In this document: in pieces, positions 41,596 to 64,000 of the stretch
Numbering within the stretch: position 1 is the first letter of the stretch
Layout: every line of letters begins with the position of its first letter
Origin: Thalassomonas haliotis
Lineage (GTDB): Bacteria; Pseudomonadota; Gammaproteobacteria; Enterobacterales; Alteromonadaceae
Direction of reading: 5' to 3'
Length of the DNA: 64,000 bases
Assembly (NCBI RefSeq): GCF_028657945.1
Contig: NZ_CP059693.1
Location: forward strand, 2,914,001-2,978,000
The notes under the pieces: generated by a model
Databases searched by the model: none
Seen by the model: only the letters and a program-made list of their open reading frames with translations
Told to the model about the DNA's origin: nothing
Translations under genes and position numbers: made by a program

Positions 41596-42102
41596 TTAAG
41601 CTGTCCTTTGGCCTTTAAAGGAAAATGCGCCATTTTCCAAATCCATTTCGGCTTCCACATAAAGCTGTAGCGGCAGTGGCTGAGCCCACATATCGGCGGT
41701 CAATTCAAAGGTCACGGCATTGGCATTGGCCTCTGTGGCATTTATCCGGGCAGATAACCTTATGGTATTGGCAATCAGGCGGGGTTCAAATTGTTTGATT
41801 GCCCTGATCAGGTCCCGTTCGAGTTTATCCCGGCGCAGGGAAGCACTGCTGATCCCGGTTAATTCGCTGAGGCCGTAATTAAGCACGGAGTCAGTGACTT
41901 CGGGGTAGTTTTTCTCTGCCAGCAGGGGAGATAAATTACGGGTGTTCAATAACCAGGACAGGTCGCGTTGCAGCGAATTTTTTAACGCTTGGACCGAGAT
42001 AATACGTTTTTCCCTGGGCTCTGAATTTTTTTCGGGGGCATCGTCGCTCAGGCGGTCAAGCAATGACGGTTGCAACCTTTCCTGCGGGCTGAGTTCAGGC
42101 AT
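41596..42102 (-). CDS. tssE: T6SS baseplate subunit TssE (gp25-like)
   Basis: 168 aa from the ATG at 42102, with AGGAG 9 nt upstream. The start PELSPQERLQPSLLDRLSDD matches the TssE N-terminus; the gp25/GPW lysozyme-like fold follows with LKNSLQRDLSWLLNTRNL, VTDSVLNYGLSELTGIS, and RDLIRAIKQFEPRLIANTIR. TssE is the sheath-initiating wedge protein. Operon position between tagJ and tssF. Confidence 0.93.
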   Translation of the reverse strand: MPELSPQERLQPSLLDRLSDDAPEKNSEPREKRIISVQALKNSLQRDLSWLLNTRNLSPLLAEKNYPEVTDSVLNYGLSELTGISSASLRRDKLERDLIRAIKQFEPRLIANTIRLSARINATEANANAVTFELTADMWAQPLPLQLYVEAEMDLENGAFSFKGQRTA

Positions 42103-42168
42103 AAAGTACTTCTCCTTGGATGTTGGCAAGCAGAAGCTGGCTTATGTTTGCTAAGAGCTTGTACCTGT

Positions 42169-43008
42169 TCATTTCGGGCTGTGGTCCAGGACTATGGTAT
42201 CGACCCCGGATAAGGCATATTCGTCGTTATCGGTAATAAAGCTTCTAAGTCCCTGGCCTATATAAAAGTTTTCCTCGGGCATTTGCCATGATGTCTTGCT
42301 CGCCAGGTCATATTCTGCCTGGCTGGCAGCATCATTGACGGGAGGATCCTGACTGCTATCCAGCCCGGGAGAAAATAAAGGCGGATAGCGGCTGGGAATA
42401 AAAGCGATAATTTCTCCCAAGTTTTCCAGTGTCAGATGACAGGGACACCACACCAGATCCCGTAAATCTTCAAAATCATCTATGACGAGTTTGTTTATCC
42501 GGTTAAAGGGCAGCCAGTAATAATTGCCATTGATGATGATTTCCAGCAAGGGGCCAAGACGGACATCTGCATCGGCCAGCCATAAAAAAGTCTTGCCATT
42601 GATGCTGCCCCCTATGGCTGGCGCGAGGGAAGCGCCTGTTTCTATTTCCTTTTTCGCCTGTGGGATGTTGTTTCTTTTAAAACTGAGCAGGGCCTGGAGA
42701 TAATAACTGACCCATTCGGCAGGCTGTCCGAAAATAACCGGCGCCCGGGTGCCGCTGAAGATTTGTTGCCGTGATTTTTCGGCGCTGATAAGCGCCTGAT
42801 AAGTGTTTTTTAGCGCCAGGTTGCTGTCACTTAACTCTGCCAATATGGCCAGTTGTTCATTTGCCCGGTTAAATTGATTCATCACACACAGTAGCTGAAA
42901 CAAAAATACTCTATGCCTGATATTATCCGGAGCACGTTGAAGCTCTTGGCAAGTCTGCTCCAGGCATAAGTTGAGCTGTTGATTTTTTAATAGTTGTTCA
43001 ACTTCCAC
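42169..43008 (-). CDS. tagJ: T6SS accessory protein TagJ (ImpE family)
   Basis: 279 aa. An N-terminal helical TPR-like half (LCLEQTCQELQRAPDNIRHR, FLFQLLCVMNQFNRANEQL) and a C-terminal SciE/ImpE half with FLWLADADVRLGPLLEIIIN, YYWLPFNRI and DLRDLVWCPCHLTLENLGEI. In other systems TagJ binds TssB and ClpV and tunes sheath recycling; it is not essential everywhere. Located between hcp and tssE. Confidence 0.88.
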   Translation of the reverse strand: MEVEQLLKNQQLNLCLEQTCQELQRAPDNIRHRVFLFQLLCVMNQFNRANEQLAILAELSDSNLALKNTYQALISAEKSRQQIFSGTRAPVIFGQPAEWVSYYLQALLSFKRNNIPQAKKEIETGASLAPAIGGSINGKTFLWLADADVRLGPLLEIIINGNYYWLPFNRINKLVIDDFEDLRDLVWCPCHLTLENLGEIIAFIPSRYPPLFSPGLDSSQDPPVNDAASQAEYDLASKTSWQMPEENFYIGQGLRSFITDNDEYALSGVDTIVLDHSPK

Positions 43009-43046
43009 CGGCTGTTCCCCAAAAGCTGCTGGTTAAAATTATCGGC

Positions 43047-43529
43047 TTATACGCTGACATTTTTGGGAATATTCCAGGCAAACTCTTTGGCGGCTTCACC
43101 CGAGCCGTCTTTTTTCTGTTTGGAGTATTCAAATTTCACTTCAGCAAAGTTTAAGGAGATGTTTTCCGTCAGCCTGTCTTCACCGCCGGAGCCGCCGGTG
43201 GATATCGAGCTGACCAGGCAATCGGTAAAGGTCACGATAATATACTCCAGCGGGACCTTTCCCGCCTTCCTGACGGTGAGTTTCGCGTTGGGGATATGCT
43301 CACCGGAGGCGCAACGCAACATCAGGGCATGGGAGGCGTTATCGATATATTTGGTAAAGGAGATATCTTCGACATTCACTTTTCCCGCACCGCCGCCTTC
43401 GCCTAAATGCATAGTGCCGCTTTGGGACATGCCCCAACTCCAGGATAATATGTCGATCTCCTGGGCATGGGAGTCGTCTATGGACTCCCCCTCGATGCCA
43501 TCGAGTTTTAGAAATATGTCAACAGCCAT
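43047..43529 (-). CDS. hcp: T6SS inner-tube protein Hcp
   Basis: 160 aa, Hcp1 family. The start MAVDIFLKLDGIEGES and the DILSWSWGMSQSGTMHLGEG segment with VNVEDISFTKYIDNASHALM are diagnostic. The end carries LNFAEVKFEYSKQKKDGSGE. Hexameric rings stack into the T6SS tube, and some effectors ride in the lumen. A good AGGAGAAAAC ribosome site precedes the ATG. It lies 29 bp after tssC. Confidence 0.95.
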   Translation of the reverse strand: MAVDIFLKLDGIEGESIDDSHAQEIDILSWSWGMSQSGTMHLGEGGGAGKVNVEDISFTKYIDNASHALMLRCASGEHIPNAKLTVRKAGKVPLEYIIVTFTDCLVSSISTGGSGGEDRLTENISLNFAEVKFEYSKQKKDGSGEAAKEFAWNIPKNVSV

Positions 43530-43558
43530 GAGTTTTCTCCTGTATTAATCGTCGTCAG

Positions 43559-45049
43559 TTAACCTTGCTTGATTGAAGGTAGTTTCGATACCAGCCTTAA
43601 TGAAGCCGTCAGCCCTTCCAGCTGGTAATGGGGCCTGAGATAAAATTTGGCGCTGTAATAGCCGGGGCTGCCTTCGATTTCTTCTACCGTGACCTCGGCG
43701 GCTGCCAGCGGTTTTCTTGCTTTGGTCTCTTCGGTTGAGTTGGCCGGATCGCCGTCGACATAATTTAATATCCAGCTTTGCAGCCAGCGCTGCATGTCTT
43801 CGCGTTCTTTAAAGGAGCCGATTTTGTCCCGGACGATACATTTGAGGTAATGGGCAAAACGGCAAGAGGCGAATAAATAGGGTAACCTCGCTGCCAGCGC
43901 CGCATTCGCGGTGGCGTCGGGGTCGTCGTATTCTATCGGTTTTTGTATGGTCTGGGCGCCGATAAACGCGGCCAGATCGGTATTTTTTTTGTGGATAAGC
44001 GGCATCATGCCAATTTTCGACAGCTCGGCTTCACGCCGATCACTGATGGCGATTTCTGTCGGGCACTTCATATCGACGCCGCCGTCATCACTGGGAAAGG
44101 TATGTACCGGCAAACCTTCCACCGCGCCGCCGGATTCAATGCCGCGGATCCTGGAGCACCAGCCGTAGAGCTTAAAGGAGCGGTTAATGTTTACCGCCAT
44201 GGAAAAAGCGGCATTCATCCAGGTATACTTGTTTGAATCGGCCCCTGCGCTGTCTTCTTCATAATCGAATTCCTCCACCGGCTCGGTGTCGGCGCCATAG
44301 GGCAGTCTGGCCAGGACTCTGGGCATGGTCAGGGCAATATACTTGGCATCGTCAGACTCGCGCAAGGAATTATAGGGAGCATAATCGGGAGTCGACATGA
44401 TTTTGGTCAGATCCCTGGGATTGGTCAGCTCAGACCAGGCCTCCATTTGCAGCATTTTCGGTGAGGCCGCGCTAATAAAAGGGGCATGGCAGGCGGCGCT
44501 GACTTTGGCAATATTGGCCAGCATTTTGACATCGCCTGGGCTGTTGTCGAAATAATAATCCCCTATCAGGCAGCCGTAAGGCTCGCCGCCGAACTGGCCG
44601 TATTCTTCCTCGTAGAGCTTTTTAAATATCGGGCTTTGATCCCAGGCGGTACCGGCAAACTTTTTCAGGTTTTTCGCCAGCTCCAGCTTGTTGACATTCA
44701 TAACCCGGATCTTCAGGAACTCGTCGGTTTCTGTATTATTGACCAGGTAATGCAATCCGCGCCAGCAGCCTTCGAGTTTTTGCAGCTCGCTATGGTGCAG
44801 CACGGCATCAAGCTGGGTTTTCATTTTCTCATCCAAGGCGGAGATAATGGCTTCAATCGAATGCACCGTATCTTCGCTGATCAGCTGCGTATCTTTGAGG
44901 GCATATTGCGCCAGGGTTTGTACGGCATTTTCGACTTCTTCTTTGGCCCGCTCGGACTTAGGTTTAAATTCTTGTTGCAATAACTGGGAAAAAGTATCCG
45001 AAGTCAGGACTTCGCCTTCTCCCTGCAGCGACTCTTTTGCATCAGTCAT
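43559..45049 (-). CDS. tssC: T6SS sheath large subunit TssC (VipB)
   Basis: 496 aa from the ATG at 45049 (TDAKESLQGEGEVLTSDTFS), which has AGGA 8 nt upstream; a longer frame exists. Family motifs are LEGCWRGLHYLVNNTETDEF, KLYEEEYGQFGGEPYGCLIG, RESDDAKYIALTMPRVLARL and the C-terminal YYSAKFYLRPHYQLEGLTAS. With TssB it forms the contractile sheath. Its start overlaps tssB by 8 bp, typical of this pair. Confidence 0.96.
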   Translation of the reverse strand: MTDAKESLQGEGEVLTSDTFSQLLQQEFKPKSERAKEEVENAVQTLAQYALKDTQLISEDTVHSIEAIISALDEKMKTQLDAVLHHSELQKLEGCWRGLHYLVNNTETDEFLKIRVMNVNKLELAKNLKKFAGTAWDQSPIFKKLYEEEYGQFGGEPYGCLIGDYYFDNSPGDVKMLANIAKVSAACHAPFISAASPKMLQMEAWSELTNPRDLTKIMSTPDYAPYNSLRESDDAKYIALTMPRVLARLPYGADTEPVEEFDYEEDSAGADSNKYTWMNAAFSMAVNINRSFKLYGWCSRIRGIESGGAVEGLPVHTFPSDDGGVDMKCPTEIAISDRREAELSKIGMMPLIHKKNTDLAAFIGAQTIQKPIEYDDPDATANAALAARLPYLFASCRFAHYLKCIVRDKIGSFKEREDMQRWLQSWILNYVDGDPANSTEETKARKPLAAAEVTVEEIEGSPGYYSAKFYLRPHYQLEGLTASLRLVSKLPSIKQG

Positions 45050-45560
45050 CTTGTTTTTCCTCTTGTGCATCGGCCTTCGGCGCCGAAATCAGGGCCTCAA
45101 GCAGGGCCGGATCGGCAATGGCTTTTTGGATCAACTCTTCCGCACCTTCCTTACCGTCCATATAGGTAATAAGATTGGCTAATTGCTGCCGGGCCTTGAA
45201 TAAGTCTTTTAAGCCGTCGACTTTTGCGGCAATGGCCGCCGGTGAAAAATCATCCATGCTTTCAAAAGAAACATCGACACTGAGCTCTCCTTCGCCTGTC
45301 ATGGTATTGGGAACGCGAAAGGCCACCCTGGGTTTGACCGACTTTAACCTGTCATCGAAATTATCGACATCAATTTCCAGGGCTTTGCGTTCGGAAATGG
45401 CCGGCAATGCTTCTTCCGGCTTGCCGCTTAGATCCGCCAATACCCCCATGACAAAAGGGATCTGGACTTTTTTTTCGGCGCCGTAAAGCTCGACGTCATA
45501 TTCAATTTGCACCCGGGGTGCCCGGTTTTTACCAATAAATTTCTGACCGCTGTTTGACAC
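45042..45560 (-). CDS. tssB: T6SS sheath small subunit TssB (VipA)
   Basis: 172 aa. FIGKNRAPRVQIEYDVELYG, PFVMGVLADLSGK and VDNFDDRLKSVKPRVAFRVP are TssB hallmarks; the region DFSPAAIAAKVDGLKDLFKA is the ClpV-binding/sheath helix area. Pairs with TssC. Second gene of the operon, 11 bp after tssA. Confidence 0.95.
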   Translation of the reverse strand: MSNSGQKFIGKNRAPRVQIEYDVELYGAEKKVQIPFVMGVLADLSGKPEEALPAISERKALEIDVDNFDDRLKSVKPRVAFRVPNTMTGEGELSVDVSFESMDDFSPAAIAAKVDGLKDLFKARQQLANLITYMDGKEGAEELIQKAIADPALLEALISAPKADAQEEKQDD

Positions 45561-45571
45561 CTGTTTTCTCC

Positions 45572-46627
45572 TTAATCTTGCTCAGTTATGCCGGCAAGGG
45601 CTTTGACCTGATCGGCACCATTGGGGGCGAGATCATTCATTATTTGCATAAAATCTTTATTAATCAGCGTTTTTGCCCTTTTTAACAATAAAGGAACCGG
45701 GCTGGAGGGCTCGTGTTGTTGAAAATAATCACAGATATTGTCGATGGCCTGCTCGACATCGGCCCGGCAAGAAATTTTGCCGCTATAAGCTGTGGCTGAA
45801 GTCTGCTGTTTTGTTTGTCTCGCGGGATCGGCCGGGGGGGCTGTACCAAGATCTGATTCACCTGGGCTTACTTCACTGAGATTTACTTCACTAAGGTTTG
45901 CTTCGCTAAGTTCTGCATATTTGACCAGCTGCTGGCGGGTTTTAACCAGGACGGCGATTAACTCGTCAAAATTGGGCTCCTGTTTTTGGGGATCTTGCCG
46001 AGCGAAGCTCGCCGCCAGGGTTGTTAACTGCTCGGGACAAGCTGATATTTGCCTAAACAGCCGGGCCAGGAGTGCCTGGTCGGTATCTTTAAATATCGCC
46101 CTGATCTGGCTTTCATTCAATCTGTCGGGGCTATCGGCATTTGTTAGTTCCACGGCGTCGAGATCTCTAAGGCACAAGGGACCAAAAAGCCCGGAGCTGG
46201 CCAGCTGGATATTTTTTAACGGCGTTATTGTTTTGCTGATATGGTTCAGGTTTGCCAGGGCCGATAACCTTTCGGTAGCATCCCCGTCATCCAGGGCGGG
46301 AAACAAGTTAGCCCAGTGGTCATTGACCAGGTTATTCACGGCGGTTAAACATTCGCTAAATTTGTCTATGCCCCGGCGGTTAAGGGCACACTGGCAAAGC
46401 AGGACAACCAGATTGAGATCTTTACTTTGTGTTAAAAAACCGGCGGCGGCTTTTTCTATTTCTGCCCAGTCGGGCGGGGTGGCGGGCAGGGTACGGGTAC
46501 CATCAAAACGTTCCGGCTGGCCTTCGGCCTGAAAATAAAGCGCTTCTAATCCCGGGTCATCTTCGAGGCTTTTGCCACAGGGAGAATCATTGCTGATTAT
46601 TGCTGTAATTACCTGAAAGTAATCCAT
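45572..46627 (-). CDS. tssA: T6SS assembly protein TssA (ImpA N-terminal domain)
   Basis: 351 aa. The ATG at 46627 is preferred over an upstream TTG. The ImpA_N domain is clear: SNDSPCGKSLEDDPGLEALY, PDWAEIEKAAAGFLTQSKDL, then LVVLLCQCALNRRGIDKF with ALDDGDATERLSALANLNHI. A variable Ser/Glu/Asn repeat (LSEANLSEVNLSEV, about 250-262) links to a C-terminal domain RADVEQAIDNICDYFQQHEP, SSPVPLLLKRAKTLINKDFM of the VasJ/short TssA type. TssA coordinates sheath and tube polymerisation at the baseplate. First gene of the minus-strand operon. Confidence 0.9.
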   Translation of the reverse strand: MDYFQVITAIISNDSPCGKSLEDDPGLEALYFQAEGQPERFDGTRTLPATPPDWAEIEKAAAGFLTQSKDLNLVVLLCQCALNRRGIDKFSECLTAVNNLVNDHWANLFPALDDGDATERLSALANLNHISKTITPLKNIQLASSGLFGPLCLRDLDAVELTNADSPDRLNESQIRAIFKDTDQALLARLFRQISACPEQLTTLAASFARQDPQKQEPNFDELIAVLVKTRQQLVKYAELSEANLSEVNLSEVSPGESDLGTAPPADPARQTKQQTSATAYSGKISCRADVEQAIDNICDYFQQHEPSSPVPLLLKRAKTLINKDFMQIMNDLAPNGADQVKALAGITEQD

Positions 46628-47040
46628 GCTGAGCGCCAACGTGATTAATGATCAAAGCTATCCGACAAAGATAGTATGACGATACACCCGATGAGTCTTG
46701 ACGCCTGCCTTGCGGGCATCATCAAAGCCCATAGATCGGAGTAAGCATAGTTCAAATATAGCACAATGCAATGGCAGTACAGGCATAGCAACAACTGGAT
46801 TGAAATTGATTTGCTCAGAAACTGGGCAGTCGAAAATCTAACTGCTATATTTTACGGGCTAACGGGGTTTTATGGTTTTTTCTCAATATTTCTCCTGTGC
46901 TATTGGCCTTGGCGGGGCCAACGGGTCCGGCGCATGCTGACGGGCTTTAATCGCCGGTATCGAACAGGGAATTTTGCTAGCAGACGATTGATGAATACTT
47001 TCCGGATAAGGAGCTATGACTAACTGGCAAAGGTAAAATT
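46628..47040. other. Divergent promoter region between the T6SS operon and the kinase gene
   Basis: About 410 bases separating two divergent transcripts. I see no clear sigma54 GG-N10-GC site. An 85-codon open frame at 46766-47023 lacks family similarity and a ribosome site, so I do not call it. A GC-poor stretch at 46690-46780 is the likely place for tssA promoter elements. Confidence 0.45.
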
Positions 47041-50000
47041 ATGTCGGAAATTGCAATACCCGGCTATGAAATCATGGAATTGCTAGGGAAGGGGGGCATG
47101 GCGTCCGTCTATAAGGCGAGGCATATCAACCTGGATCGTGAAGTCGCTCTGAAAATAATGGATGAAAGTCTCAATGCTGATCAAAGTTTCAGCGAGCGCT
47201 TTGTCCGTGAAGCCAAAATCTCTGCAAAACTGATGCATCCGAACATTATTCAGGTGTATGACGTCGGTCATATCAACAAGCACAACTTCTTATCCATGGA
47301 ATACATTTGCGGTGGTGATCTCGCCGGTATTATCCACAATGACTTAGACCTTAAGCTGGTGCACCAGTGTATCGGTGAAATGGCGCTTGCCCTGGATTTC
47401 TCCCACAGCAAAGGGGTTATCCACCGGGATATCAAACCCAGCAATATTTTGATCCGTGAGAACGGCAGCTTTGCCCTGGCAGATTTTGGCATTGCCCGCC
47501 GGGAAGACTCCAAGACCAATATGACCATTGCCGGTAGTGTGATGGGAACCCCAAAATATATGAGTCCGGAGCAGGCTATGGGTGATGAACTTGACGGGCG
47601 TTCCGATTTATACAGCCTGGGAGTGGTTTTTTATGAAATGCTCACCAAAAAGGTCCCTTATGAAGCCAGTTCCTCCGTCGGTACCGCGATTAAGCATTTA
47701 AATGATGCCATTCCGTTATTACCGAAAAAACTTGAGCGATATCAGCAGTTCTTAAATACTGCGATGGCGAAAAAGCCCGAAAACAGGCATGCATCGGGGC
47801 TTGCCATGTATGACGCGCTTCAGGCCCTGGCCGGCGAAGACCATCAGGATACCGTGGTTTATTCACGTACCGAATTAAACCGTGCGTTAAACAAACGGCA
47901 AATGGCTGAACAGCCAAAAATCGTCAATATTTCCGCTTTTGTGTCGTTAACCCGGGAAAAACTGACGGCCTGTGCCGGGAAATGCATTGATTTGATTGTT
48001 AAATGTTATGCAGGGCTTAAAGGCAAAGCTGCCCGCTTTCCCGTAAAGCAAGCCGGGGAATATGGTGCGCGGTTAATGGAAGCGGGCAGTATGTTTTTGC
48101 GCCGACTGAGCTTGCGGGGTAAAAAATTTTATGCCCAATGTCAGCAGGCTCCGGCATTTTCGCGGGTAAAAAATATCTTGCCGGTAGTGGTAGCGGCACT
48201 TTTTGTGTTATGGATTTTGCTGTTGCCCTTTATTGGCGAACAGGAAAACCAGGTTAAAGCACAATTTGCCCAACAGCAGTTATTTATTCAGGCAGAGCAG
48301 GCCTTAAGCCACTTGCAATATGCACAGGCGGCGGGCATTTTTGCCGAGATTTTACAACGTGATGGCACTAATGTGCGGGCCAGGCAAGGGCTGGATAACA
48401 GTATCGAGGAAATGACCGGGCAAGTATCCCGGTTAATCGCAAGCCACCAAGTGGTAAAGGCGAAAGCGCTGTTGCAGGCCCTGTCGGCCATAGACGGTAA
48501 CCATCCGCAGCTGGCGGCTTTTACCCGCCAGGTGAATGCCCTTGAAAAGCAGGTACAGGGGCAACAGGCTACACGGGAAGAAATCCGTACTTTGATGGCA
48601 CAAATCAATAGCGGGCTAACGCCTGAAAAGATCAGCGTCGGGCAAGTTGAAAACCTGCTGGCCAGGCAGCTGCAGCTGGCCAGTCTGCAGCCGAAAAGCC
48701 AGGAGGTACAAACCCTCAAGGCGGTGATTTTTCATAAAGCCATCGACAGTGGCAAGTTATATTTGCAGCAGCAGGATATAGAGCAAACAAAGCAGCTTCT
48801 GGCAATTGCCAGAAAACTGCTGCCGGATCATCCCAGTGTCCGCTCCCTTAATGCCGCTATTGATGCCTATGGTGACAACTCTGCTGTGGCACAAGAAAAG
48901 CGGGCACTTAAGGCCAGACAAGTGGAACGTTACCTGGCGCAGGCTGAAAATGCTTTTGGGCAAAAGAATTATTACGCCGAAGCCGGACTCAGTGCCTATT
49001 TTCTCTATGTGGTGGTGCTTGAGCTCCAGCCGGATAATGCCGTAGCCATTAAGGGCATGAATGATACCGTGGCGGCGATAGAGCAGCAGGCCATTGACGC
49101 AATAAACCGTTCGGATATCACCAGTGCCCGTCAGGCGGTATATCGCCTGTCACGTGTCGCCAAAGCGCAGGAGCGGGTGATCGACGCAAATAACGCCCTG
49201 TTGGCAAAAGTAACTCAAAGCGGGAGCAAACCTGTGGCACAGGCGCAGCTAACGGCCCTGTTAGCTCAAGGGGAGAGCGATTTGCAGCATTACCCCCTTA
49301 ATCTTAACCGTTTAACTTCGGCCCTGAATGCTTACCGTAAGGTGTTATTGCAGCAGCCGTTTGAGGGCCAGGCCCTTGAAGGCTACCGGCGTTTAAGCGA
49401 GTTGTTTCTCACCTTCGCCCAGGAGCGTAGCGCCGGCGGCAATTATCCTGTGGTGCTGACGGCGCTGGAGCAGGCGATCACTTTAAATCCCGATAACCCG
49501 TTGGCGATTAACCTGTTTAACCAAATACAGGATGAAATTGCCAAAAAAGAGAAGCTACTCACCAGCAAGCAGCTGCTGGCAAAAGCCGAAGCAGCAGGCG
49601 AAAAAGCACTATGGCTTGATGCTGTTTTGGCCTATGCCCGGCTGTTGCAACTTTTGCCGACACATGAAAAGGCAAAAGACGGCTATGTGCAGGTGAAAGC
49701 CGAGTTGTTTAACTTGTTGTCAACAGACATTAAACGCAATCGCCTGACCTTAACGCGGCAAAAAATGGCGACCCTGTCACCCTATCTTGAAGAAGATCCC
49801 GGGTTTATCAAACTCTATCAAGATCTTGAGTTTGCCCAGGCGCAATGGGATGAAAAACAGGCCCGTCGGCGGGCTTCAATTCCGGATAAAATCCAAAAAG
49901 CGAGGGCGCTGGTGAAAAGCGGCAACCTGACCTTACCCTGGAATAACAGCGCCCATTATTATTATCAGCAGGTGTTGGCGATAGACCCCCAAAATGTCCA

Positions 50001-50187
50001 GGCAAAAAAAGGCCTGGACCGCATCTATAAACAACTGGTAAGCATGGCGGACGGTTATTTGAACCAGGGAGAATTAAAAAAAGCCCGGGTCTTTTATAAC
50101 CGCCTGGCCAAGCTGGCCCCGTCACGGCCTGAGTTGGCGGTTTTGAAATCGAAAATGGCATTGCTGGAGAAAAGCTCCAATAATTAA
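47041..50187 (+). CDS. Membrane serine/threonine protein kinase with large repeat domain (T6SS-associated, PpkA/Stk type)
   Basis: 1048 aa. Eukaryotic-like kinase domain about 8-265: glycine loop LLGKGGMASVYKA, Lys38 in VALKIM, Glu57, catalytic HRD (128-130) in VIHRDIKPSNIL, DFG Asp148 in LADFGIAR, and GTPKYMSPEQ. All key residues are present, so it is predicted active. A basic juxtamembrane region is followed by one TM helix near 380-400 (VVVAALFVLWILLLPFIG) and a roughly 640-residue extracytoplasmic part of TPR-like helical repeats (for example QAEQALSHLQYAQAAGIFAE). T6SS kinases (PpkA) post-translationally trigger assembly. No FHA protein or phosphatase partner is encoded nearby. It starts the plus-strand kinase-vgrG-DUF6484 unit. 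Confidence 0.9.
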   Translation: MSEIAIPGYEIMELLGKGGMASVYKARHINLDREVALKIMDESLNADQSFSERFVREAKISAKLMHPNIIQVYDVGHINKHNFLSMEYICGGDLAGIIHNDLDLKLVHQCIGEMALALDFSHSKGVIHRDIKPSNILIRENGSFALADFGIARREDSKTNMTIAGSVMGTPKYMSPEQAMGDELDGRSDLYSLGVVFYEMLTKKVPYEASSSVGTAIKHLNDAIPLLPKKLERYQQFLNTAMAKKPENRHASGLAMYDALQALAGEDHQDTVVYSRTELNRALNKRQMAEQPKIVNISAFVSLTREKLTACAGKCIDLIVKCYAGLKGKAARFPVKQAGEYGARLMEAGSMFLRRLSLRGKKFYAQCQQAPAFSRVKNILPVVVAALFVLWILLLPFIGEQENQVKAQFAQQQLFIQAEQALSHLQYAQAAGIFAEILQRDGTNVRARQGLDNSIEEMTGQVSRLIASHQVVKAKALLQALSAIDGNHPQLAAFTRQVNALEKQVQGQQATREEIRTLMAQINSGLTPEKISVGQVENLLARQLQLASLQPKSQEVQTLKAVIFHKAIDSGKLYLQQQDIEQTKQLLAIARKLLPDHPSVRSLNAAIDAYGDNSAVAQEKRALKARQVERYLAQAENAFGQKNYYAEAGLSAYFLYVVVLELQPDNAVAIKGMNDTVAAIEQQAIDAINRSDITSARQAVYRLSRVAKAQERVIDANNALLAKVTQSGSKPVAQAQLTALLAQGESDLQHYPLNLNRLTSALNAYRKVLLQQPFEGQALEGYRRLSELFLTFAQERSAGGNYPVVLTALEQAITLNPDNPLAINLFNQIQDEIAKKEKLLTSKQLLAKAEAAGEKALWLDAVLAYARLLQLLPTHEKAKDGYVQVKAELFNLLSTDIKRNRLTLTRQKMATLSPYLEEDPGFIKLYQDLEFAQAQWDEKQARRRASIPDKIQKARALVKSGNLTLPWNNSAHYYYQQVLAIDPQNVQAKKGLDRIYKQLVSMADGYLNQGELKKARVFYNRLAKLAPSRPELAVLKSKMALLEKSSNN

Positions 50188-50241
50188 CACAGAGATCCCC
50201 GGGTTGTCCCGGTAAGCCTACTGTAAAGAAAGGACAGTATT

Positions 50242-52290
50242 TTGGCGACTCAAAACAAGCGGCAGTTTGCCATCAGCACCCCGTTGGCAAGCGATAAACT
50301 TTTATTATATAAGTTGCAGGGCGTTGAAGCCTTAGCCGCCCCTTTCCATTACAAGTTAGAACTTTTCAGCGAAGATAACTGTATTAACAGCGATGAATTG
50401 CTGGCGAAAAGCGTGACGGTTTCTATTGCCACAGCCGATGGCAGCCCGCGGTATATCAATGGTTATGTTACCGAATTTTATCAAATGGAGCCCTATGGCG
50501 ATCAATTCAGGTATTTTGCCGAAATCCGTCCCTGGTTATGGCTGCTGACCTTAAGTGAAAACTGCCGTATTTTCCAAAAGCAAAGTTACCCTGAGATCAT
50601 CAAAACCGTGTTTGATGAACTGGGCTTTAGTGATGTGGCAGATCATTTAAGCGGCTCGTATCCCGCCAAAGATTATGTGGTGCAGTTTAATGAGAGCGAT
50701 TTTGACTTTATCTCGCGCTTGCTGGCCCAGGAAGGGATCTTTTATTTTTTCAAGCACAGTGAAAATAATCATATCCTGGTGCTGGTGGATGAGAATAGTT
50801 CGCTGGAGAAAATAGGCGACATTCATTACCGGGCAAGCGAATACCGCCGCCAGCAGCGACAAAGTGCCTTTATTGAACAGTGGCAGCAACACAAAAAAGT
50901 GTGCACCGGCGGGGTAAGAAGAACCGATTACGACTATCATTCGCCGGCAAAAAATCTCGAAACCCTGGCCAGCGATCCCGCTTTACCGTCATTATCGGCA
51001 TTTGAACGTTTTCGTTATCCGGGGAAATATCAACAAAGATCTTTGGGGGACAACTATACCCGGCTGTTGATGGAAAGCGAAAACAAGCGCTTTGAAACCT
51101 TATCCGGGGCCAGCAACCACCGCCTGCTCACCGCCGGCAGTGTTTTTAACTTAACCGAGTATTTCAGGGAACAGCAAAACCGGGATTATCTTGCCGTCTC
51201 TGCAACTTTAGCCATAGAAAACGATGATTTTAAAGCCGGCAGCGGTGAGGAAGAGCAAGATGTTTATCGCTGCCAGTTTATGGCGATCCCGGCGGATACG
51301 AGTTTTCGTCCGGATTTTAAAGTAAAAAAACCTATTATGTATGGCCCGCAAACGGCAGTGGTGGTGGGGAAAAGCGGCGAGGAGATCTGGACCGACGAAT
51401 TCGGCCGGGTCAAAGTGCAATTTCATTGGGATCGCCAGGGAGCATGTGACGAGAACAGCTCCTGCTGGATTCGGGTGTCCCAGGTACATGCCGGCAGTGG
51501 TTTTGGCGGTATTGATATTCCCCGCATCGGGGAAGAAGTTATTGTCGAATTTCTCGGCGGAGATCCCGACCGGCCGATTATTACCGGCAGGGTTTATAAC
51601 GGTCAAAATAAAAGCCCGAATTCCCTGCCGGCAAAAGCTATGGTGAGCGGCTTAAAATCCCGCAGTACCCCAAAAGGCAGCGGCGACAACAGTTTGATGT
51701 TTGATGACAGCAAAGACAGCGAGCTTATTTTACTGCATGGCCAGCATGATATGGAAAAAAATATTGACCATGATGAAACGGTAACCATAGGCAATGATCG
51801 CAGCGAAAATGTCGGTAATGATGAAAGTATTACCATAGGCAATAACCGCAACGAATCTGTGGCAAAAGATGAAAGTATCAGTATCGGGGAGAATCGCAGT
51901 TTAACCGTAGCGAAAGATAATAATGAAGTTATCGATAAAAACGAAACCGTTACCATAGGCGCCAACCGGACGTTAACCGTAGCTCATAATTTAACGGAAA
52001 CCGTGGATAAAGATAAATCTGTAACGGTTTCAGGCGAGGTGCTTGAGAAATACGAGAAAAGTCAAAGTGTGACTGTCGGTAAAGATTATCTGCAACAGGT
52101 TGATAAAAAAGTTGTGATCTCCGCCGGCGATGAAATCTGCGTGACCACCGGCGATGCAAAAGTTGTGATGAAAAAAAATGGCGATATCACCATCAAAGGC
52201 AAGAATATTACCCTGGATGCCAGCGGTAAAGTCAATATTAAGGCCGGCGGCAATGTTATTATTAAAGGGGCAAAAATCACTCAAAATTAA
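50242..52290 (+). CDS. vgrG: T6SS spike protein VgrG
   Basis: 682 aa. TTG start at 50242 with AAAGGA 7 nt upstream. The gp27-like part begins FAISTPLASDKLLLYKLQG with YVVQFNESDFDFISRLLAQE and GIFYFFKHSE. The gp5 OB domain carries WTDEFGRVKVQFHWDRQG and RIGEEVIVEFLGGDPDRPII. A C-terminal beta-prism needle of about 28-residue periodic TIGxNRxxxVxxDE repeats (about 505-600) follows, ending KITQN with no extra effector domain. Effectors must therefore ride through adaptors. The partner DUF6484 gene follows by 38 bp. Confidence 0.95.
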   Translation: MATQNKRQFAISTPLASDKLLLYKLQGVEALAAPFHYKLELFSEDNCINSDELLAKSVTVSIATADGSPRYINGYVTEFYQMEPYGDQFRYFAEIRPWLWLLTLSENCRIFQKQSYPEIIKTVFDELGFSDVADHLSGSYPAKDYVVQFNESDFDFISRLLAQEGIFYFFKHSENNHILVLVDENSSLEKIGDIHYRASEYRRQQRQSAFIEQWQQHKKVCTGGVRRTDYDYHSPAKNLETLASDPALPSLSAFERFRYPGKYQQRSLGDNYTRLLMESENKRFETLSGASNHRLLTAGSVFNLTEYFREQQNRDYLAVSATLAIENDDFKAGSGEEEQDVYRCQFMAIPADTSFRPDFKVKKPIMYGPQTAVVVGKSGEEIWTDEFGRVKVQFHWDRQGACDENSSCWIRVSQVHAGSGFGGIDIPRIGEEVIVEFLGGDPDRPIITGRVYNGQNKSPNSLPAKAMVSGLKSRSTPKGSGDNSLMFDDSKDSELILLHGQHDMEKNIDHDETVTIGNDRSENVGNDESITIGNNRNESVAKDESISIGENRSLTVAKDNNEVIDKNETVTIGANRTLTVAHNLTETVDKDKSVTVSGEVLEKYEKSQSVTVGKDYLQQVDKKVVISAGDEICVTTGDAKVVMKKNGDITIKGKNITLDASGKVNIKAGGNVIIKGAKITQN

Positions 52291-52328
52291 CCGGCCGGGT
52301 GAAATTCTTTGAATTTATGGAGGCAAAG

Positions 52329-52826
52329 ATGCAAGAGCTGCTTAATGAAAAAGGCCAGAAACAAGCGTTACACGGTGTTGTTATCGGCGTATTGGTAGGC
52401 TTTTCCAAAGACGATGCGCCTTTGGTGGTGTATGGTGAAAACCCCAGCGAGGAGCCGGTTATTGCCCAAACAACCGTGTTGCTTGAACATCAGCATTTGG
52501 GTAAGAAACTGGCATTGTTGTTTACCGGAGGAGATCCCCTTAAGCCGATGATTATCGGGCCTTTGCTCGAGCCCCAAGGCAATGAATCCGGCGCAAAGCC
52601 CGGCAAAGGGCCAAGTGAGGAGTCTAAGGGCCAGTATCAACCGCTAGAGTTAACTCTTGACGGCAAACGCCTGGTATTAACGGCAAAAAACGAGCTGGTA
52701 TTGAGATGCGGCGAAGCAAGCATCACTTTGAAAAAAAATGGCAAAATCTTATTAAGCGGGACCAATCTATTAAGCCGGGCGCAATTTGCCAACCGCATCA
52801 AAGGCGGTTCGGTACAAATAAACTGA
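52329..52826 (+). CDS. DUF6484 domain protein, VgrG-linked
   Basis: 165 aa from the ATG at 52329, chosen because GGAGG lies 5 nt upstream; a GTG at 52299 is less likely. The N-terminal part (LHGVVIGVLVGFSKDDAPLV, VLLEHQHLGKKLALLFTGGD, then PLKPMIIGPLLEP) matches DUF6484 as I recall it, an OB-like domain found near vgrG. The C-terminal part ELVLRCGEASITLKKNGKIL resembles the VgrG spike tail (compare 'DITLKKNG' repeats). A spike-tip adaptor or extension is plausible; there is no PAAR motif. It ends the plus-strand unit. Confidence 0.75.
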   Translation: MQELLNEKGQKQALHGVVIGVLVGFSKDDAPLVVYGENPSEEPVIAQTTVLLEHQHLGKKLALLFTGGDPLKPMIIGPLLEPQGNESGAKPGKGPSEESKGQYQPLELTLDGKRLVLTAKNELVLRCGEASITLKKNGKILLSGTNLLSRAQFANRIKGGSVQIN

Positions 52827-56095: not shown

Positions 56096-56995
56096 ATGTT
56101 TAACCTATTTAGCAGCAATAAAATTCCCGCCGATCAGGTTTTGATCGCGAAAGATGAATTAGCCGATTTGATGGCCAAAGCGCAGTTAGTTGAGCAACTT
56201 GAACAAAGCGGCGCTTTAGACATTGCCCAACAAATCACCGACAATGCGCAAAAGGTGAATCAGGCTTCGTCGAGCCGCCTGGCACAAATTGAAGACAATT
56301 ATCGGCTGATCCAGTCCTTTATCGAACAGTCTGAAGGCATTGAACAAACTTCTCACGACTCTTTTAAATCGGCAAAAGATACTGCGCAAACCTCTGAAAA
56401 CGGTATTAAACAGCTTGAAGACCTTAGTCAGAACGTTATGACCTCGGCGCAGTATATTCGTGAATTTACCGAATTGCTGGTGAGTCTGGATGAAAACAAT
56501 AAAAATATCGGCCAATTGGTGGAATCCATTAAAGGCATAGCCGATCAAACCAATTTACTGGCCCTGAACGCGGCGATTGAAGCCGCTCGTGCGGGCGAGC
56601 ATGGTCGGGGGTTTGCCGTGGTGGCGGATGAAGTGCGCTCCCTGGCCAATACCGCCAACCAGTCTGCGGATCAGATCCAAAATGAAATGAAAAATATCAT
56701 GGATATTTCCTCTTCTATCATAGATAAGCAAAAGCAGGTTTCGGGTATTATTGACTCCAGTGTCGATATCGCCGGCACCACCATGGAAAATCTGCAATCG
56801 CTGGTAACGTTGTCGCTGTCGAGCTCTAACCTGGTGGAGTCCACTATTGCCCAGGTACAGCATCAGCTAAGCGACTCGGAAACCATTAAAGACAATATGC
56901 TGCAACTTATTGAGGATACCCGCAACGCCCTTGACGGCTCTTCTGAAAATGCCGAGCTGGGGCAGGAATTAGTCAGGCATCTGATGGCCAAGTAA
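56096..56995 (+). CDS. Soluble methyl-accepting chemotaxis protein
   Basis: 299 aa with no membrane helix. N-terminal helical region about 1-90 with no recognised sensor fold, then the MCP signalling coiled coil containing the hairpin tip [20 protein letters not shown] with [20 protein letters not shown], which binds CheA/CheW. The C-terminal return arm lacks a CheR-tethering pentapeptide. Cytoplasmic receptor whose stimulus is unknown. Directly after the nrtS-like gene (29 bp), so the two may be coregulated and nitrate/nitrite related (inference). Confidence 0.9.
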
Positions 56996-57195: not shown

Positions 57196-58458
57196 TTATG
57201 CGGCAAAATTCAGCCCATAGATATTGTCTTTTTTCCAGGCACAGGTAGCCAGGGTTTTGGCAAATTTTGCCGAACTTATGGTGATATTCTCCAGCTTGTC
57301 CAATTCATTGTCGCACTGCACCCGGGCGCCGCCTAAAGGGGAGTAATCCAATATTTTACAAGGGGTTTGCTGTTGATCTATTTGGATTTCACCTGTGAGT
57401 TGGCTGGTAATGATGCGGGAGAAATGCCGTCTTTCGTCGCTGCGGGAAAAAGACCAGCTTTCGTGTAAATTTTCCGGCTGGTAGTCTTCGACTTTTTTAA
57501 TCCGTTCAAGTACGCTCTCATGAATAGAGACATTAACGGCGGGGTAATCAAGTTCTCCTTCGAGTGAGCGGATTTCAGCTTTGGCGCCGAGGCGAGCCAT
57601 TAACCGGTAAGGCAGGCTGTAGGAGTCATGCAGACGTCCACAGGCATTGGCATCCACTTTTGATTTGTCTTTGAGGTAACCCTGGTCGAAATCCAGTCCC
57701 AGCAGGGCCACTTTTTGGATCATCCACAGCAAGCTCAGATCCGATAAACCGGACTCTTCATAGCCGCCGCCGATATCACTATGGCAGCCGGCAAACCACA
57801 CCTGCTCAACCGTTTGCCCCGGGTGGCTGCTTCCCGTCCATAAGGCCGGCTTAAAAGGAGGTCTTTTTTCATCTATTGCCAGCGCCTGATAGGCGTTTTT
57901 AACTTCCGGGGTCAAGCGGGTGTCAAGAAATCCTACCCAAGGTTTGGTTAACTGCCCCAGTAGAGGGACAGGCACACCTAACGCCCCGACCGTATCCCAT
58001 ACCGCCATCACTTCAATTTCCGGTTTCGGGTAGTGGGAGTAGCGCTGGTATTCACGTTTGTGCGGCGCGGTGCGATAATATTTATAGGCCTGGGGCAGGG
58101 TATGCAGTTCGTCTTTGGGCAATAAGCCAACCGTATGCAGCATACCGGCAAGGGCCCTTACGGTGTAGGCGCCGCGGCTGAAGCCGAAGCAGTAGATATC
58201 ATCTCCTTCCTGGTAGTTGTGGGCAAGAAAACGATAGGCATCAATAATGTTTTGTCCGATACCTTTACCGAAGATGCCCATCATGCGATCTGAGGCATTG
58301 TAGGTGCCTACGCCCTGATCATAAAAAACTACCTGGTGTTTGCCGTCCTTGCCATAAGGGGTGAGGGAGCGGACGATCTTGACTACATTAGTGGGTTTAT
58401 CCGGGGTATTCCAGGTACCATCACAACAGATCACGATACGCTTGTTTTGTATTTTCAT
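57196..58458 (-). CDS. DUF2235 (Tle1-like) alpha/beta hydrolase fused to a C-terminal PilZ domain
   Basis: 420 aa from ATG 58458 (GGAG 7 nt upstream; ATG 58461 is an alternative). Residues about 4-330 are DUF2235: KRIVICCDGTWNTPDKPTNV, VVFYDQGVGTYN, nucleophile elbow FGFSRG with Ser94, a candidate acid in AVWDTVGALGVP (Asp155) and AGCHSDIGGGY with His226, the Ser-Asp-His layout of Tle1 phospholipases. Residues about 342-418 are a PilZ domain: RHFSR (RxxxR, 344-348), DYSPLG (DxSxxG, 371-376) and the closing strand CAWKKDNIYGLNF. No signal peptide or membrane helix is seen, so it is predicted cytoplasmic. Known Tle1 proteins are T6SS effectors without PilZ; c-di-GMP-controlled lipase activity is inferred. 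Confidence 0.88.
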   Translation of the reverse strand: MKIQNKRIVICCDGTWNTPDKPTNVVKIVRSLTPYGKDGKHQVVFYDQGVGTYNASDRMMGIFGKGIGQNIIDAYRFLAHNYQEGDDIYCFGFSRGAYTVRALAGMLHTVGLLPKDELHTLPQAYKYYRTAPHKREYQRYSHYPKPEIEVMAVWDTVGALGVPVPLLGQLTKPWVGFLDTRLTPEVKNAYQALAIDEKRPPFKPALWTGSSHPGQTVEQVWFAGCHSDIGGGYEESGLSDLSLLWMIQKVALLGLDFDQGYLKDKSKVDANACGRLHDSYSLPYRLMARLGAKAEIRSLEGELDYPAVNVSIHESVLERIKKVEDYQPENLHESWSFSRSDERRHFSRIITSQLTGEIQIDQQQTPCKILDYSPLGGARVQCDNELDKLENITISSAKFAKTLATCAWKKDNIYGLNFAA

Positions 58459-60329: not shown

Positions 60330-61184
60330 TCAGGCGTATTTCAGTTGCTCGGCTGTGCTAAGGCGTGCTGCATAATCATCTGCCGATAAAAAGCCGGGAA
60401 TACTGACCGCTTCATTGGTTAATTCATTGACGACATCGCCGATGATGATCAGGGTCGGCGGGGTGATCTTATGTTTTTGCGCCAGCTGTGGCAGGGTGTT
60501 TAATACCCCGCGGTAGACCTCCTGATCTTCCCGGGTGCCTTTTCTAATCAGCGCGACCGGGGTGTCTGCTCTTCTGCCGTGCTTGATCAGCTGCTCGGTG
60601 ATCACCGGCAAGGTGTTGATCCCCATGTAAAATACTATGGTCTGACTGTCGCAGGCCAGGCTTGGCCACGGCAGGTTGAGCTGACCGTTATTTTGCATAT
60701 GGCCGGTGATAAAGGTACAACCCTGGGCTACGCCGCGGTGGGTGAGGGGGATACCGGCATAGGTGGTACAGCCGGATGCCGCGGTGATCCCGGGACAGGT
60801 ATGGCAGCTGATGCCGTTTTCCAGCAAATACTGTGCTTCTTCACCGCCGCGGCCAAAGATAAAGGGATCGCCGCCTTTAAGGCGCAATACCCGCTTGCCT
60901 TGTCTGGCAAGGTCGAGCAAGAGTTCATTGATTTTATCCTGGGGCACGCAATGTTTGGCCTGCTCTTTACCGACATAATATTTTTCATTATGCTCGGGCA
61001 GCAGGGCCATAATTTCTTCGCTGACCAGGCGGTCGTAAACGGTCACTTGCGCCTGCTCGATAAACCTCAGGGCTCTTAAGGTTAATAATTCAGGATCGCC
61101 GGGACCTGAGCCTACCAGGGCGACTTCCCCGCCGTTAAAAGGGGTTTGGCTGATTTTTTTATTTAATATCGTCATCTTGCTCAC
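60330..61184 (-). CDS. nirE: Uroporphyrinogen-III C-methyltransferase (NirE-type SUMT)
   Basis: 284 aa. SUMT motifs are EVALVGSGPGDPELLTLRAL (start of the tetrapyrrole-methylase fold), RLKGGDPFIFGRGGEEAQYL and TITAASGCTTYAGIPLTHR-like region (PGITAASGCTTYAGIPLTHR). It methylates uroporphyrinogen III twice to precorrin-2. Its position behind nirJ, nirH and nirG makes a dedicated role in heme d1 synthesis likely, so NirE rather than CobA. It lacks the CysG dehydrogenase/ferrochelatase domain. Confidence 0.9.
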   Translation of the reverse strand: MSKMTILNKKISQTPFNGGEVALVGSGPGDPELLTLRALRFIEQAQVTVYDRLVSEEIMALLPEHNEKYYVGKEQAKHCVPQDKINELLLDLARQGKRVLRLKGGDPFIFGRGGEEAQYLLENGISCHTCPGITAASGCTTYAGIPLTHRGVAQGCTFITGHMQNNGQLNLPWPSLACDSQTIVFYMGINTLPVITEQLIKHGRRADTPVALIRKGTREDQEVYRGVLNTLPQLAQKHKITPPTLIIIGDVVNELTNEAVSIPGFLSADDYAARLSTAEQLKYA

Positions 61185-61194
61185 ACTCGCTTTT

Positions 61195-62391
61195 TTAAAC
61201 TTCTACTACAGGGATTTGCTCTGCCCTGAGGGAATTAGCCCCCAGGCCTATTTCATGGTCTTCCAGGTAACAGCCGGGATCTTCCGCCCAGGGATCCCGG
61301 GTTTGGGCAAAGGCCCGGGTACGGGTATTACCGCCGCAGATATTGAGGTATTGGCAGCGGGCACAACGGCCTTTTACCGGCCGCGGGCTTTGGCGAAAGC
61401 CCAGCATTAACGGGTCTTGGCTGTTTTTCCAGATATTGGAGAATTTTCCGGTTTTGACATTACCCAGGGCATGATCCCACCAATAGGTATCCGGATGGAC
61501 AGTACCGGTATTGTCTATGTTAGCGACATTAACCCCGGAAGCATTGCCGCCCCACTGGATCAGTTTTTGCCGTAGATTTTCAACCCGCTGCGGGTGGCTG
61601 TCACCGAATTTCTTTTGTGCCCATTGCAATAAAAACGGGCCGTCGGCATCGTTATTGCCGGTGACAAAGTCGCTGTTTATACCCTGGCAGATATGTGACC
61701 AGGCCCGCTCAAACAGGATTTCCATTGCATCTTTGGTCATTTTGAACATGGCATCATTTTGCGCGCTGCGCTTGCCGCGACCGGAATAATTTAAGTGGGA
61801 CAGGTAAAATTTATCCACCCCTTTCTCTTCCATGATATCGAGCAGTGCCGGCAGGTCGTCAAAGTTGTCTTTGGTCAGGCATAAACGCATACCGACTTTA
61901 ATACCGGCTGCCTTGCACAGCTCTATGGCTTTCATGGAACTTTTATAGCTGCCGATTTGACGGCGGAAATGGTCGTGGAAGCCTTCCAGGCCGTCAATGC
62001 TGATGCCGACATATTGATAATCGGCGGCTTTGATGGCATCGATATTATCTTCATTGATCAAGGTGCCGTTGGTAGACAGGGCCAGATAAAAACCTTTGCT
62101 TTTGGCATAGTCGCTGATTTCAAAAATATCCGGGCGCAGCAGCGGCTCGCCGCCCGAGAGGATCAATACCGGTACATGGGCCACTTTTAAGTCGTCTATG
62201 GTGGCCTTGATTTGCCCGGTGGAAAGTTCGTCTTTAAAATCTATGTCTAAAGAGGTTGAATAACAATGGCGGCAGCTTAAGTTGCAGCGGCGGATCAAAT
62301 TCCAGATCACTACGGGTCCCGGCATGTTGCGCTTTGGGGCGACCGGCCTATCATGGGTTAAGGTTTTTAGCAGTTGAGAAATTCTGAACAT
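61195..62391 (-). CDS. nirJ: Heme d1 biosynthesis radical SAM protein NirJ
   Basis: 398 aa, typical NirJ length. Radical SAM cluster CNLSCRHCYSTS (CxxxCxxC) near residue 35, with GGEPLLRPDI and SISIDGLEGFHDHF-like segments. The SPASM-like C-terminal cysteines RCARCQYLNICGGNTRTRAF and EDPGCYL may bind a second cluster. NirJ removes propionate side chains of didecarboxysiroheme and installs oxo groups. Ends 10 bp before the nirE start; starts 13 bp after nirH. Confidence 0.95.
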   Translation of the reverse strand: MFRISQLLKTLTHDRPVAPKRNMPGPVVIWNLIRRCNLSCRHCYSTSLDIDFKDELSTGQIKATIDDLKVAHVPVLILSGGEPLLRPDIFEISDYAKSKGFYLALSTNGTLINEDNIDAIKAADYQYVGISIDGLEGFHDHFRRQIGSYKSSMKAIELCKAAGIKVGMRLCLTKDNFDDLPALLDIMEEKGVDKFYLSHLNYSGRGKRSAQNDAMFKMTKDAMEILFERAWSHICQGINSDFVTGNNDADGPFLLQWAQKKFGDSHPQRVENLRQKLIQWGGNASGVNVANIDNTGTVHPDTYWWDHALGNVKTGKFSNIWKNSQDPLMLGFRQSPRPVKGRCARCQYLNICGGNTRTRAFAQTRDPWAEDPGCYLEDHEIGLGANSLRAEQIPVVEV

Positions 62392-62403
62392 AATTAATCT
62401 CCG

Positions 62404-63021
62404 TTATTCAGCCGGTTTGTTTTGTACGGACTTTGTACTGTTTTTTGTTGCTTGTGCCTGCTTTTTCAGGCGCAAACCGGTTTTTTTCAGGATACGGGTA
62501 CTGGTGAGCATGTCGTTGCTCTTTAGGGCGTTATCCGGCTGATTGTGTAATACTTCAGCCAGCAGCTGTTTTATTTGCGCCCGATACTGCTTAATGTCAC
62601 TTTCACTGCGGCCATGCACCATGGCAAACAGGTTATAATTCCAGTGGGGCAGGTGTCTGGGCCTGAGGTAACAATGGCTGACAAAGTCGAGTTTACCCAC
62701 GGCTTCGCCAAATTCGTGTGCCGCATCGTCTCTGACATCCCATACCGTCATGCCGTTAAAGCGATAACCTAGTTTGTAATGGTTGGGCACGGCGGCGATG
62801 CGGCGGATAACGCCGCGGGCCAATAAATCCTCTGTCATGGCCAATACCTGGTCAACAGAGATCTCAAGTTGCTGTGCCAGGGCATGATAGGGCTGTGCCA
62901 CCAGTGGCAAACCGTCTTGTGTCAGCAAGACATAGCGGCGCTCCAGTGGGGATAGCTCCCGCTTGTCTTGCTCAGGGGACTCAGCGCTCTGGCTGCTAAA
63001 TCGGCAAATAGAGTCCGACAT
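62404..63021 (-). CDS. nirH: Siroheme decarboxylase subunit NirH (Lrp/AsnC-like)
   Basis: 205 aa from the ATG at 63021 with GGAGG 6 nt upstream. An Lrp-like N-terminal helix-turn-helix (YVLLTQDGLPLVAQPYHALA) is followed by the AsnC-type domain GYRFNGMTVWDVRDDAAHEF with YLRPRHLPHWNYNLFAMVHG, a shared signature (RP-R-LPHWxYNLF-MxHG) of the NirDLGH proteins. Together with NirG it decarboxylates siroheme to 12,18-didecarboxysiroheme. A Lys-rich C-terminal tail is unusual in length. Overlaps nirG by about 26 bp. Confidence 0.88.
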   Translation of the reverse strand: MSDSICRFSSQSAESPEQDKRELSPLERRYVLLTQDGLPLVAQPYHALAQQLEISVDQVLAMTEDLLARGVIRRIAAVPNHYKLGYRFNGMTVWDVRDDAAHEFGEAVGKLDFVSHCYLRPRHLPHWNYNLFAMVHGRSESDIKQYRAQIKQLLAEVLHNQPDNALKSNDMLTSTRILKKTGLRLKKQAQATKNSTKSVQNKPAE

Positions 63022-63535
63022 AGAATTCCTCCAGTTTCGGGACATTTAATACCTGGATCCCGGTTTTTGTTTCTATTTGTTCAATGACGGTGGCGATCTC
63101 GGTTTCACTTTCGGTGGCAATAACAAACCACATATTAAGTTGATGATTACGCTGGTAATTGTGTGCTATTTGCTCAAAGCCATTGACGACTTCTACAACC
63201 TGGTCAAATTCGCTTTCGGGCACGGCCATGGCCGCCAGGGTAAAGGCACCGCCAAGGCAGGCGGCATCATACATAGGGCCGAAGCGGGACAATACCCCTT
63301 GCTCCAATAAGCTATTGAGCCGGGAAAGCACAATTTGCTCTGTGGTATTAAGGGCATCGGCGACACTGGTAAAAGGGCGTTCGCATACCGGCAAGCCCCG
63401 CTGCAATAAATTGATCAGGGCCTTATCTAAAGGCGAAAAGTCTAAGGGTGAAGAATCTAAAGGAGTGCTCGCCTCAGCCCGGTGCCGGTTTCCCGTTTGT
63501 TTCTGGCCTGATGTTTTTTCCTTAAGCTCGGTCAT
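62996..63535 (-). CDS. nirG: Siroheme decarboxylase subunit NirG (Lrp/AsnC-like)
   Basis: 179 aa from the ATG at 63535 (TELKEKTSGQKQTGNRHRAE); a longer frame reaches 63601 into the preceding gene. A Ser/Pro-rich repeat (TPLDSSPLDFSPLD) precedes the Lrp-like HTH KALINLLQRGLPVCERPFTS and RLNSLLEQGVLSRFGPMYDA. The AsnC domain has GGAFTLAAMAVPESEFDQVV with NYQRNHQLNMWFVIATES. The QRNHxLNMWF pattern distinguishes NirG/NirD-type from NirH/NirL. Overlaps the upstream gene by 14 bp. Confidence 0.85.
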   Translation of the reverse strand: MTELKEKTSGQKQTGNRHRAEASTPLDSSPLDFSPLDKALINLLQRGLPVCERPFTSVADALNTTEQIVLSRLNSLLEQGVLSRFGPMYDAACLGGAFTLAAMAVPESEFDQVVEVVNGFEQIAHNYQRNHQLNMWFVIATESETEIATVIEQIETKTGIQVLNVPKLEEFYVGLYLPI

Positions 63536-64000
63536 TGCCTGGTTTCCTTTGACTGTATCTCGCCCCTTGCTGCTTAAAGGCTTTATAACTAAAGAGCACA
63601 TCCTTTTTGATATGATTGAGCTCCAGCTCCCGGGTCAGTACTTCAATTTGTCTGAGCACCGCCTCTTTGTTTTTGCCGTGGATCATACAAAACAAGTTGT
63701 AGCTCCAGTGGGGCAGGCGGCGCGGGCGCTGGTAACATAAAGACACTTCCCCCCGCGCCGACAGTTGCCCGGCAATGCGGTCTACATCCTGATCTTCGAT
63801 GTCCCATACCACCATGGCATTGGCGCAGTACCCCAGTTGCCTGTGTTTTACCACCAGGCCGAGTCGGCGGATCAGGCTCTGTTGCTGCCAGTAATTAATC
63901 TGGCTGATCACCGCGGCTTCGCTGGTATTGAGCCTGGCGGCAATTTCCTGGTAGGGGCGGGGACTCAGGGGCAAGCCCTGCTCAAGGTAAACCCGTAATT
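63522..64000 (-). CDS. nirL: Siroheme decarboxylase subunit (NirL/NirH-type Lrp/AsnC-like), 5' truncated by window edge
   Basis: About 158 residues are visible; the frame is open to the right edge (LRVYLEQGLPLSPRPYQEIA), so the start is missing. Lrp-like HTH (SEAAVISQINYWQQQSLIRR) and AsnC domain with VVWDIEDQDVDRIAGQLS and RPRRLPHWSYNLFCMIHGKN, the same RP-R-LPHWxYNLF-MxHG motif as NirH. Whether this is a single NirL or the C-terminal half of a fused NirDL cannot be told here. Next gene nirG overlaps its end. Confidence 0.85.
   Translation of the reverse strand, partial: LRVYLEQGLPLSPRPYQEIAARLNTSEAAVISQINYWQQQSLIRRLGLVVKHRQLGYCANAMVVWDIEDQDVDRIAGQLSARGEVSLCYQRPRRLPHWSYNLFCMIHGKNKEAVLRQIEVLTRELELNHIKKDVLFSYKAFKQQGARYSQRKPGNDRA

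Follow-up and report, generated by a model that had tools for sequence, protein, structure and literature searches.

How is one to read a gene that joins a hydrolase of the DUF2235 (Tle1-like) class to a PilZ domain: as a toxin of the type VI secretion system (T6SS), or as a resident enzyme answering to c-di-GMP? The question is raised by a 420-residue protein encoded in a stretch of 64,000 nucleotides from Thalassomonas haliotis (NZ_CP059693.1, positions 2,914,001 to 2,978,000; hereafter "the window"), part of a one-contig genome of 6.45 Mb. The reading we lean toward, as rather likely on sequence and modeled structure, is that of a cytosolic DUF2235 (Tle1-like) serine lipase or esterase, the activity or membrane engagement of which would be under c-di-GMP control. 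The features on which the argument turns are as follows (window coordinates).

57196..58458, minus strand: DUF2235-PilZ fusion gene, 420 aa plus stop, with full-length homologues
57715..58443, minus strand: Tle1-like/DUF2235 alpha/beta-hydrolase domain, residues 6-248 by Pfam
58177..58179, minus strand: nucleophile Ser94 (GFSRG), aligned with TleB Ser240
58054..58056, minus strand: Arg135, largely fusion-specific, a candidate inter-domain contact
57994..57996, minus strand: catalytic acid Asp155, aligned with TleB Asp280
57781..57783, minus strand: catalytic His226, aligned with TleB His347
57415..57429, minus strand: RxxxR motif, R344-HFS-R348, both arginines in 42/42 fusions
57331..57348, minus strand: [DN]xSxxG motif, D371-YSPL-G376, D or N in 42/42 fusions
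57199..57444, minus strand: PilZ domain, residues 339-420, by profile comparison and model
35973-52826: T6SS cluster with ClpV-like ATPase, TssA-G-like, Hcp-like and VgrG genes, named by eye, TssC by PF05943

The two domains of the fusion protein

A preliminary description of this DNA, made from its letters, had proposed a true two-domain protein of 420 residues, and the PF09994 and PilZ matches, together with the full-length homologues, bear this out. The DUF2235 assignment is secure at 282.9 bits over residues 6-248 against a PF09994 cut-off of 27, and homology to stand-alone DUF2235 proteins extends further, to about residue 333. The residues put forward as a catalytic triad coincide with the published triad of TleB and lie as Ser-Asp-His within an alpha/beta-hydrolase fold; Ser94, Asp155 and His226 are each kept in all 42 aligned fusions and in 46 of 46 plain relatives. 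The genome has no other PF09994 gene, and an NCBIfam search assigned the protein to no family.

The PilZ assignment held for the isolated tail, which scores 25.3 bits against the PF07238 cut-off of 22.5, and failed in the full-length scan, which missed the domain; a genome-wide PF07238 scan likewise did not detect the PilZ of the fusion, and at E <= 0.1 there was no match in five of 23 fusion tails. Profile comparison supports the tail through the PilZ domains of the same genome, with matches to BcsA and VCA0042. The model, for its part, contains the six-stranded beta-barrel expected of a PilZ domain and matches PA0012:c-di-GMP; c-di-GMP-bound PA0012 and BcsA are the closest folds, with MapZ-type single PilZ domains also among the best, while pLDDT is low at residues 331-350, the RxxxR motif included. 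Both ligand-contacting motifs were correctly recognized at the outset: RxxxR (R344/R348) and [DN]xSxxG (D371/S373/G376) are present and conserved, the serine of the latter being found in 39 of 42 fusions and lost in three, and the adjacent G377 in all 42. Binding of c-di-GMP by the fusion is well supported by inference from the invariant RxxxR, the near-invariant [DN]xSxxG and the predicted fold.

Sequence and model together give a layout of alpha/beta-hydrolase, linker of ~10 residues and canonical C-terminal PilZ barrel. Only two positions, Arg135 and V43, pass a filter for fusion-specific residues (at least 93% in fusions, below 50% in plain relatives). Arg135 occurs in 31/33 fusions versus 9/46 plain relatives in one alignment and is invariant among 42 fusions in another; that it forms part of a hydrolase-PilZ interface is speculative.

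All four same-genus genomes carry the gene, at 88-94% identity. Across the six pairs among them, residues 1-330 have a dN/dS of 0.061-0.110 and residues 340-420 one of 0.009-0.061, and the PilZ tail is under strong purifying selection. Promoter and terminator scans gave a signal no higher than in shuffled sequence.

GGDEF domains were found in 38 of 38 fusion-genome rows examined, with 72 matches in the genome of the window and only six in a Nitrospirales MAG; since GGDEF genes are very common, their universality lends the c-di-GMP reading weak support. A second PilZ match of the window (12149-12436, plus strand, 51.7 bits) has one TAA within it and was excluded from the alignments.

Distribution and history of the fusion

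The DUF2235-PilZ fusion is rare. Full-length copies occur in 6/59 genomes of the relatives sample (any match in 16), in 9/394 of the order sample (match at 1e-30 in 49), in 2/369 of the class sample (match at 1e-20 in 52) and in 2/398 of the phylum sample (match at 1e-40 in 91). For the named genome collection, with 218 relatives in all, the analysis covered the 80 best, which correspond to 79 loci; the PilZ tail is present at 36 of these, in every case within a fusion. That count includes locus L070 (Rheinheimera baltica DSM 14885), in which the fusion frame is broken after ~114 residues and resumes in a later open stretch; either a sequencing error or a decaying gene would account for this.

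A survey of Alteromonadales had been suggested, a scope that proves too narrow, as the fusion is present in MAGs of other phyla. The genera with the fusion are Thalassomonas, Rheinheimera, Marinobacter, Aliikangiella and Hahella; among MAGs it is seen in one of the Oleiphilaceae, in unplaced Gammaproteobacteria, in two of the Desulfuromonadaceae, one of the Nitrospirales (Nitrospirota) and one of the Gemmatimonadales (Gemmatimonadota), the groups of the MAGs being the labels as assigned.

In a Rosetta-stone search of the 79 loci with the tail profile, no free-standing PilZ gene of this type turned up in the flanks of the 43 loci that have a plain DUF2235 gene. A profile built from the genome's own 11 PilZ domains (A4) matched nothing in the 79 loci, and because even the fusions were missed this profile is too weak to count. 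As for plasmids, among the matches to the hydrolase listed (10 of 140) all end at residue 330-344.

In a tree of the hydrolase domain, built from selected rows comprising 33 fusions and 46 plain proteins (leaving aside L070 with its broken frame, truncated rows and near-duplicates), the fusion label changes only twice, as against a mean of 25.8 in shuffles, none of 500 of which was as low. The tree is of a quick type, in which 30 of the 76 inner branches are open and one branch, L038, is long. With so few changes, the fusion appears to be an old unit that has been kept. Four plain proteins (L088, L096, L097 and L101) are nested among the fusions, so loss or a second gain has taken place; a single origin of the fusion is possible on these sequences.

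Neighbouring genes and rival explanations

Were a partner or a secretion system needed, one might look for it in the neighbourhood. Clustering of the neighbours of 35 loci and the window (36 neighbourhoods) yielded no recurrent partner gene beyond generic groups, and the genes next to the fusion include no recurrent cyclase and no recurrent cluster of immunity-like, adaptor or VgrG type. The widest cluster is a generic ABC-transporter group (15/36); an MCP-like gene appears in 5/36. Pfam matches among 71 neighbours at 20 of the 35 loci include ABC transporters (6), TonB receptors (3), methyltransferases (3) and GGDEF proteins (2), with no T6SS family in the 25 of 113 families listed. Since no partner gene recurs alongside, control likely resides inside the fusion protein itself.

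Judged by eye, 56096-56995 (plus strand) encodes an MCP-like soluble protein; this gene and the fusion converge tail to tail in the window, as in L063. In L060 and L061 the fusion is followed by a gene of the MCP cluster, and one is close by in L059. Such adjacency could be chance, because MCP-type genes are common. Elsewhere in the window, two closely similar surface or exported-type proteins of 581 and 595 aa are encoded in tandem (20818-22563 and 23004-24791, plus strand, by eye) and look like a recent duplication, and a run at 60330-63974 (minus strand), with a uroporphyrinogen methyltransferase-like gene, a radical-SAM NirJ-like gene and three NirD/L/G/H-like regulators by eye, looks like heme d1 synthesis genes.

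The T6SS cluster of the window had been offered as context for the function of the fusion, a functional link that the comparison does not support: in the four T6SS-bearing genomes compared outside Thalassomonas the fusion is not close to TssC, and TssC is missing from 12 of the 39 fusion-genome rows. In the window vgrG ends at 52290, and four genes separate the T6SS genes from the fusion. Inspected by eye, the cluster also encodes a serine/threonine-kinase-like protein of 1048 aa and has no obvious effector adjoining VgrG. The genome as a whole has six PF05943 matches, and so several T6SS clusters. TssC lies ~12-13 kb from the fusion gene in four genomes of the genus Thalassomonas; in four other T6SS-bearing genomes (G389, G024, G361 and G019) it is at least 178 kb away or on another contig. 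TssC is present in 27 of the 39 rows; as G389/G414 and G352/G426 are the same genomes, the counts for distinct genomes are 26 with and 11 without, of at most 37. Five of the 12 TssC-less rows have completeness 99-100 (G352, G344, G200, G120 and G297).

It is against this background that a delivered antibacterial phospholipase, with a tail that aids loading or silences the enzyme in its producer, appears very improbable to us. Its N-terminal part has the fold of Tle1/TleB, and a T6SS cluster is nearby in the four same-genus genomes, but the nearly complete TssC-less genomes, the lack of linkage in the other T6SS-bearing genomes compared and the absence of any recurring immunity-like neighbour all disfavor it. 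A Tle1 effector gene would be found beside vgrG or an adaptor and an immunity gene, an arrangement that is absent from the window and does not recur in the 36 neighbourhoods, and the fusion is without the large second domain of Tle1/TleB (model residues 1-308 were matched in targets of 521-742 residues). Also improbable, though less so, is a PilZ domain that is structural or protein-binding and has no affinity for c-di-GMP. The marginal PF07238 score and the five of 23 tails under the threshold used would fit such a domain, and lack of ligand binding is known for several PilZ domains (PMC10333796, available excerpt); against it, the residues that non-binding PilZ domains lose are here retained (RxxxR in 42/42, D/N in 42/42, S in 39/42).

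Of greater weight, while still on the unlikely side, is the idea that the PilZ domain binds c-di-GMP for placement, carrying a constitutively active hydrolase to the pole, the membrane or a polysaccharide or motility partner. Many PilZ proteins do act through protein contact (PMC10333796, available excerpt), and the best fold matches include PA0012 and single PilZ domains of the MapZ type. On the other hand, no neighbour recurs across the 36 neighbourhoods, or among the 25 of 113 families listed, that would point to a partner, and the short linker and fusion-enriched Arg135 weakly hint at contact between the two domains.

A proposed c-di-GMP-controlled hydrolase and its relatives

For the c-di-GMP-controlled cytosolic enzyme that we prefer, a cytoplasmic location is consistent with the model, in which no N-terminal extension precedes the first strand (residues 7-12), and no export signal is visible in the protein. 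Its more specific form, a cytosolic phospholipase or lysophospholipase/esterase gated by c-di-GMP, with catalysis switched by its own PilZ domain in several phyla, we advance tentatively, at somewhat under an even chance. In the preferred reading as a whole, c-di-GMP would bind between linker residues R344/R348 and barrel residues D371/S373/G376, ordering the linker and shifting the barrel against the hydrolase; this movement could open or expose the active site, and acyl-ester hydrolysis would thereby be coupled to the c-di-GMP level. A membrane phospholipid or lysophospholipid is a first guess at the substrate. By analogy with BcsA, activation by c-di-GMP is favoured over inhibition, and in known cases of PilZ domains fused to enzymes catalysis is affected (PMC10333796, available excerpt).

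No paper describing a DUF2235-PilZ protein was found in the open-access literature searched, where two papers name both domains only in passing, although InterPro/Pfam architecture pages may well list it. Both domains are known; what is new is their pairing and its conservation. Published PilZ outputs are, to our knowledge and from the available excerpt of PMC10333796, mainly polysaccharide synthesis, motility, chemotaxis and transcription. Should the proposed function be correct, lipid turnover would join the processes under direct c-di-GMP control, tying this life-style signal directly to the turnover of membrane lipid, and stand-alone DUF2235 proteins, a large group of which little has been studied, would gain a housekeeping role distinct from the toxins of the T6SS. 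The fusion is directly testable, being small, soluble-looking and present in culturable, non-pathogenic Rheinheimera and Marinobacter.

In fold and triad, the catalytic domain is that of Tle1 (P. aeruginosa, E. coli) and TleB (Xanthomonas), the latter having both PLA1 and PLA2 activity (PMC12421835, available excerpt). Unlike these effectors, the fusion has a PilZ domain in place of the large C-terminal domain, is without a recurrent immunity or VgrG partner and occurs in genomes with no TssC. Tle1 of P. aeruginosa is toxic from the periplasm only (PMC13133936, available excerpt), whereas the fusion has no visible export signal; that Tle1 is harmless in the cytoplasm fits a tolerated resident enzyme of the same class. 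Near precedents for the architecture are Nas343 and Nas354, from a slaughterhouse metagenome, in which the partner of PilZ is an N-acyl amino acid synthase (PMC4897644, available excerpt), an acyltransferase of different fold where the fusion is a hydrolase, and PilZ domains fused to PrsW peptidases (PMC3482391, available excerpt). Closest by sequence are the stand-alone DUF2235 hydrolases (~335-400 aa), which in the survey of the order are 41-46% identical to it across residues 2-335; they share the triad and, unlike the fusion, have no PilZ tail. BcsA cellulose synthase also ends in a PilZ domain, but it is a membrane glycosyltransferase with an unrelated catalytic domain. CapV of CBASS is a cytosolic patatin phospholipase activated by a cyclic dinucleotide. 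Hydrolase family and sensor differ between the two, and in contrast to CapV no cyclase recurs beside the fusion gene; what they would share is the logic of gating, the fusion then paralleling, for c-di-GMP, the CBASS phospholipases that cyclic dinucleotides activate, as a resident enzyme rather than a defence toxin.
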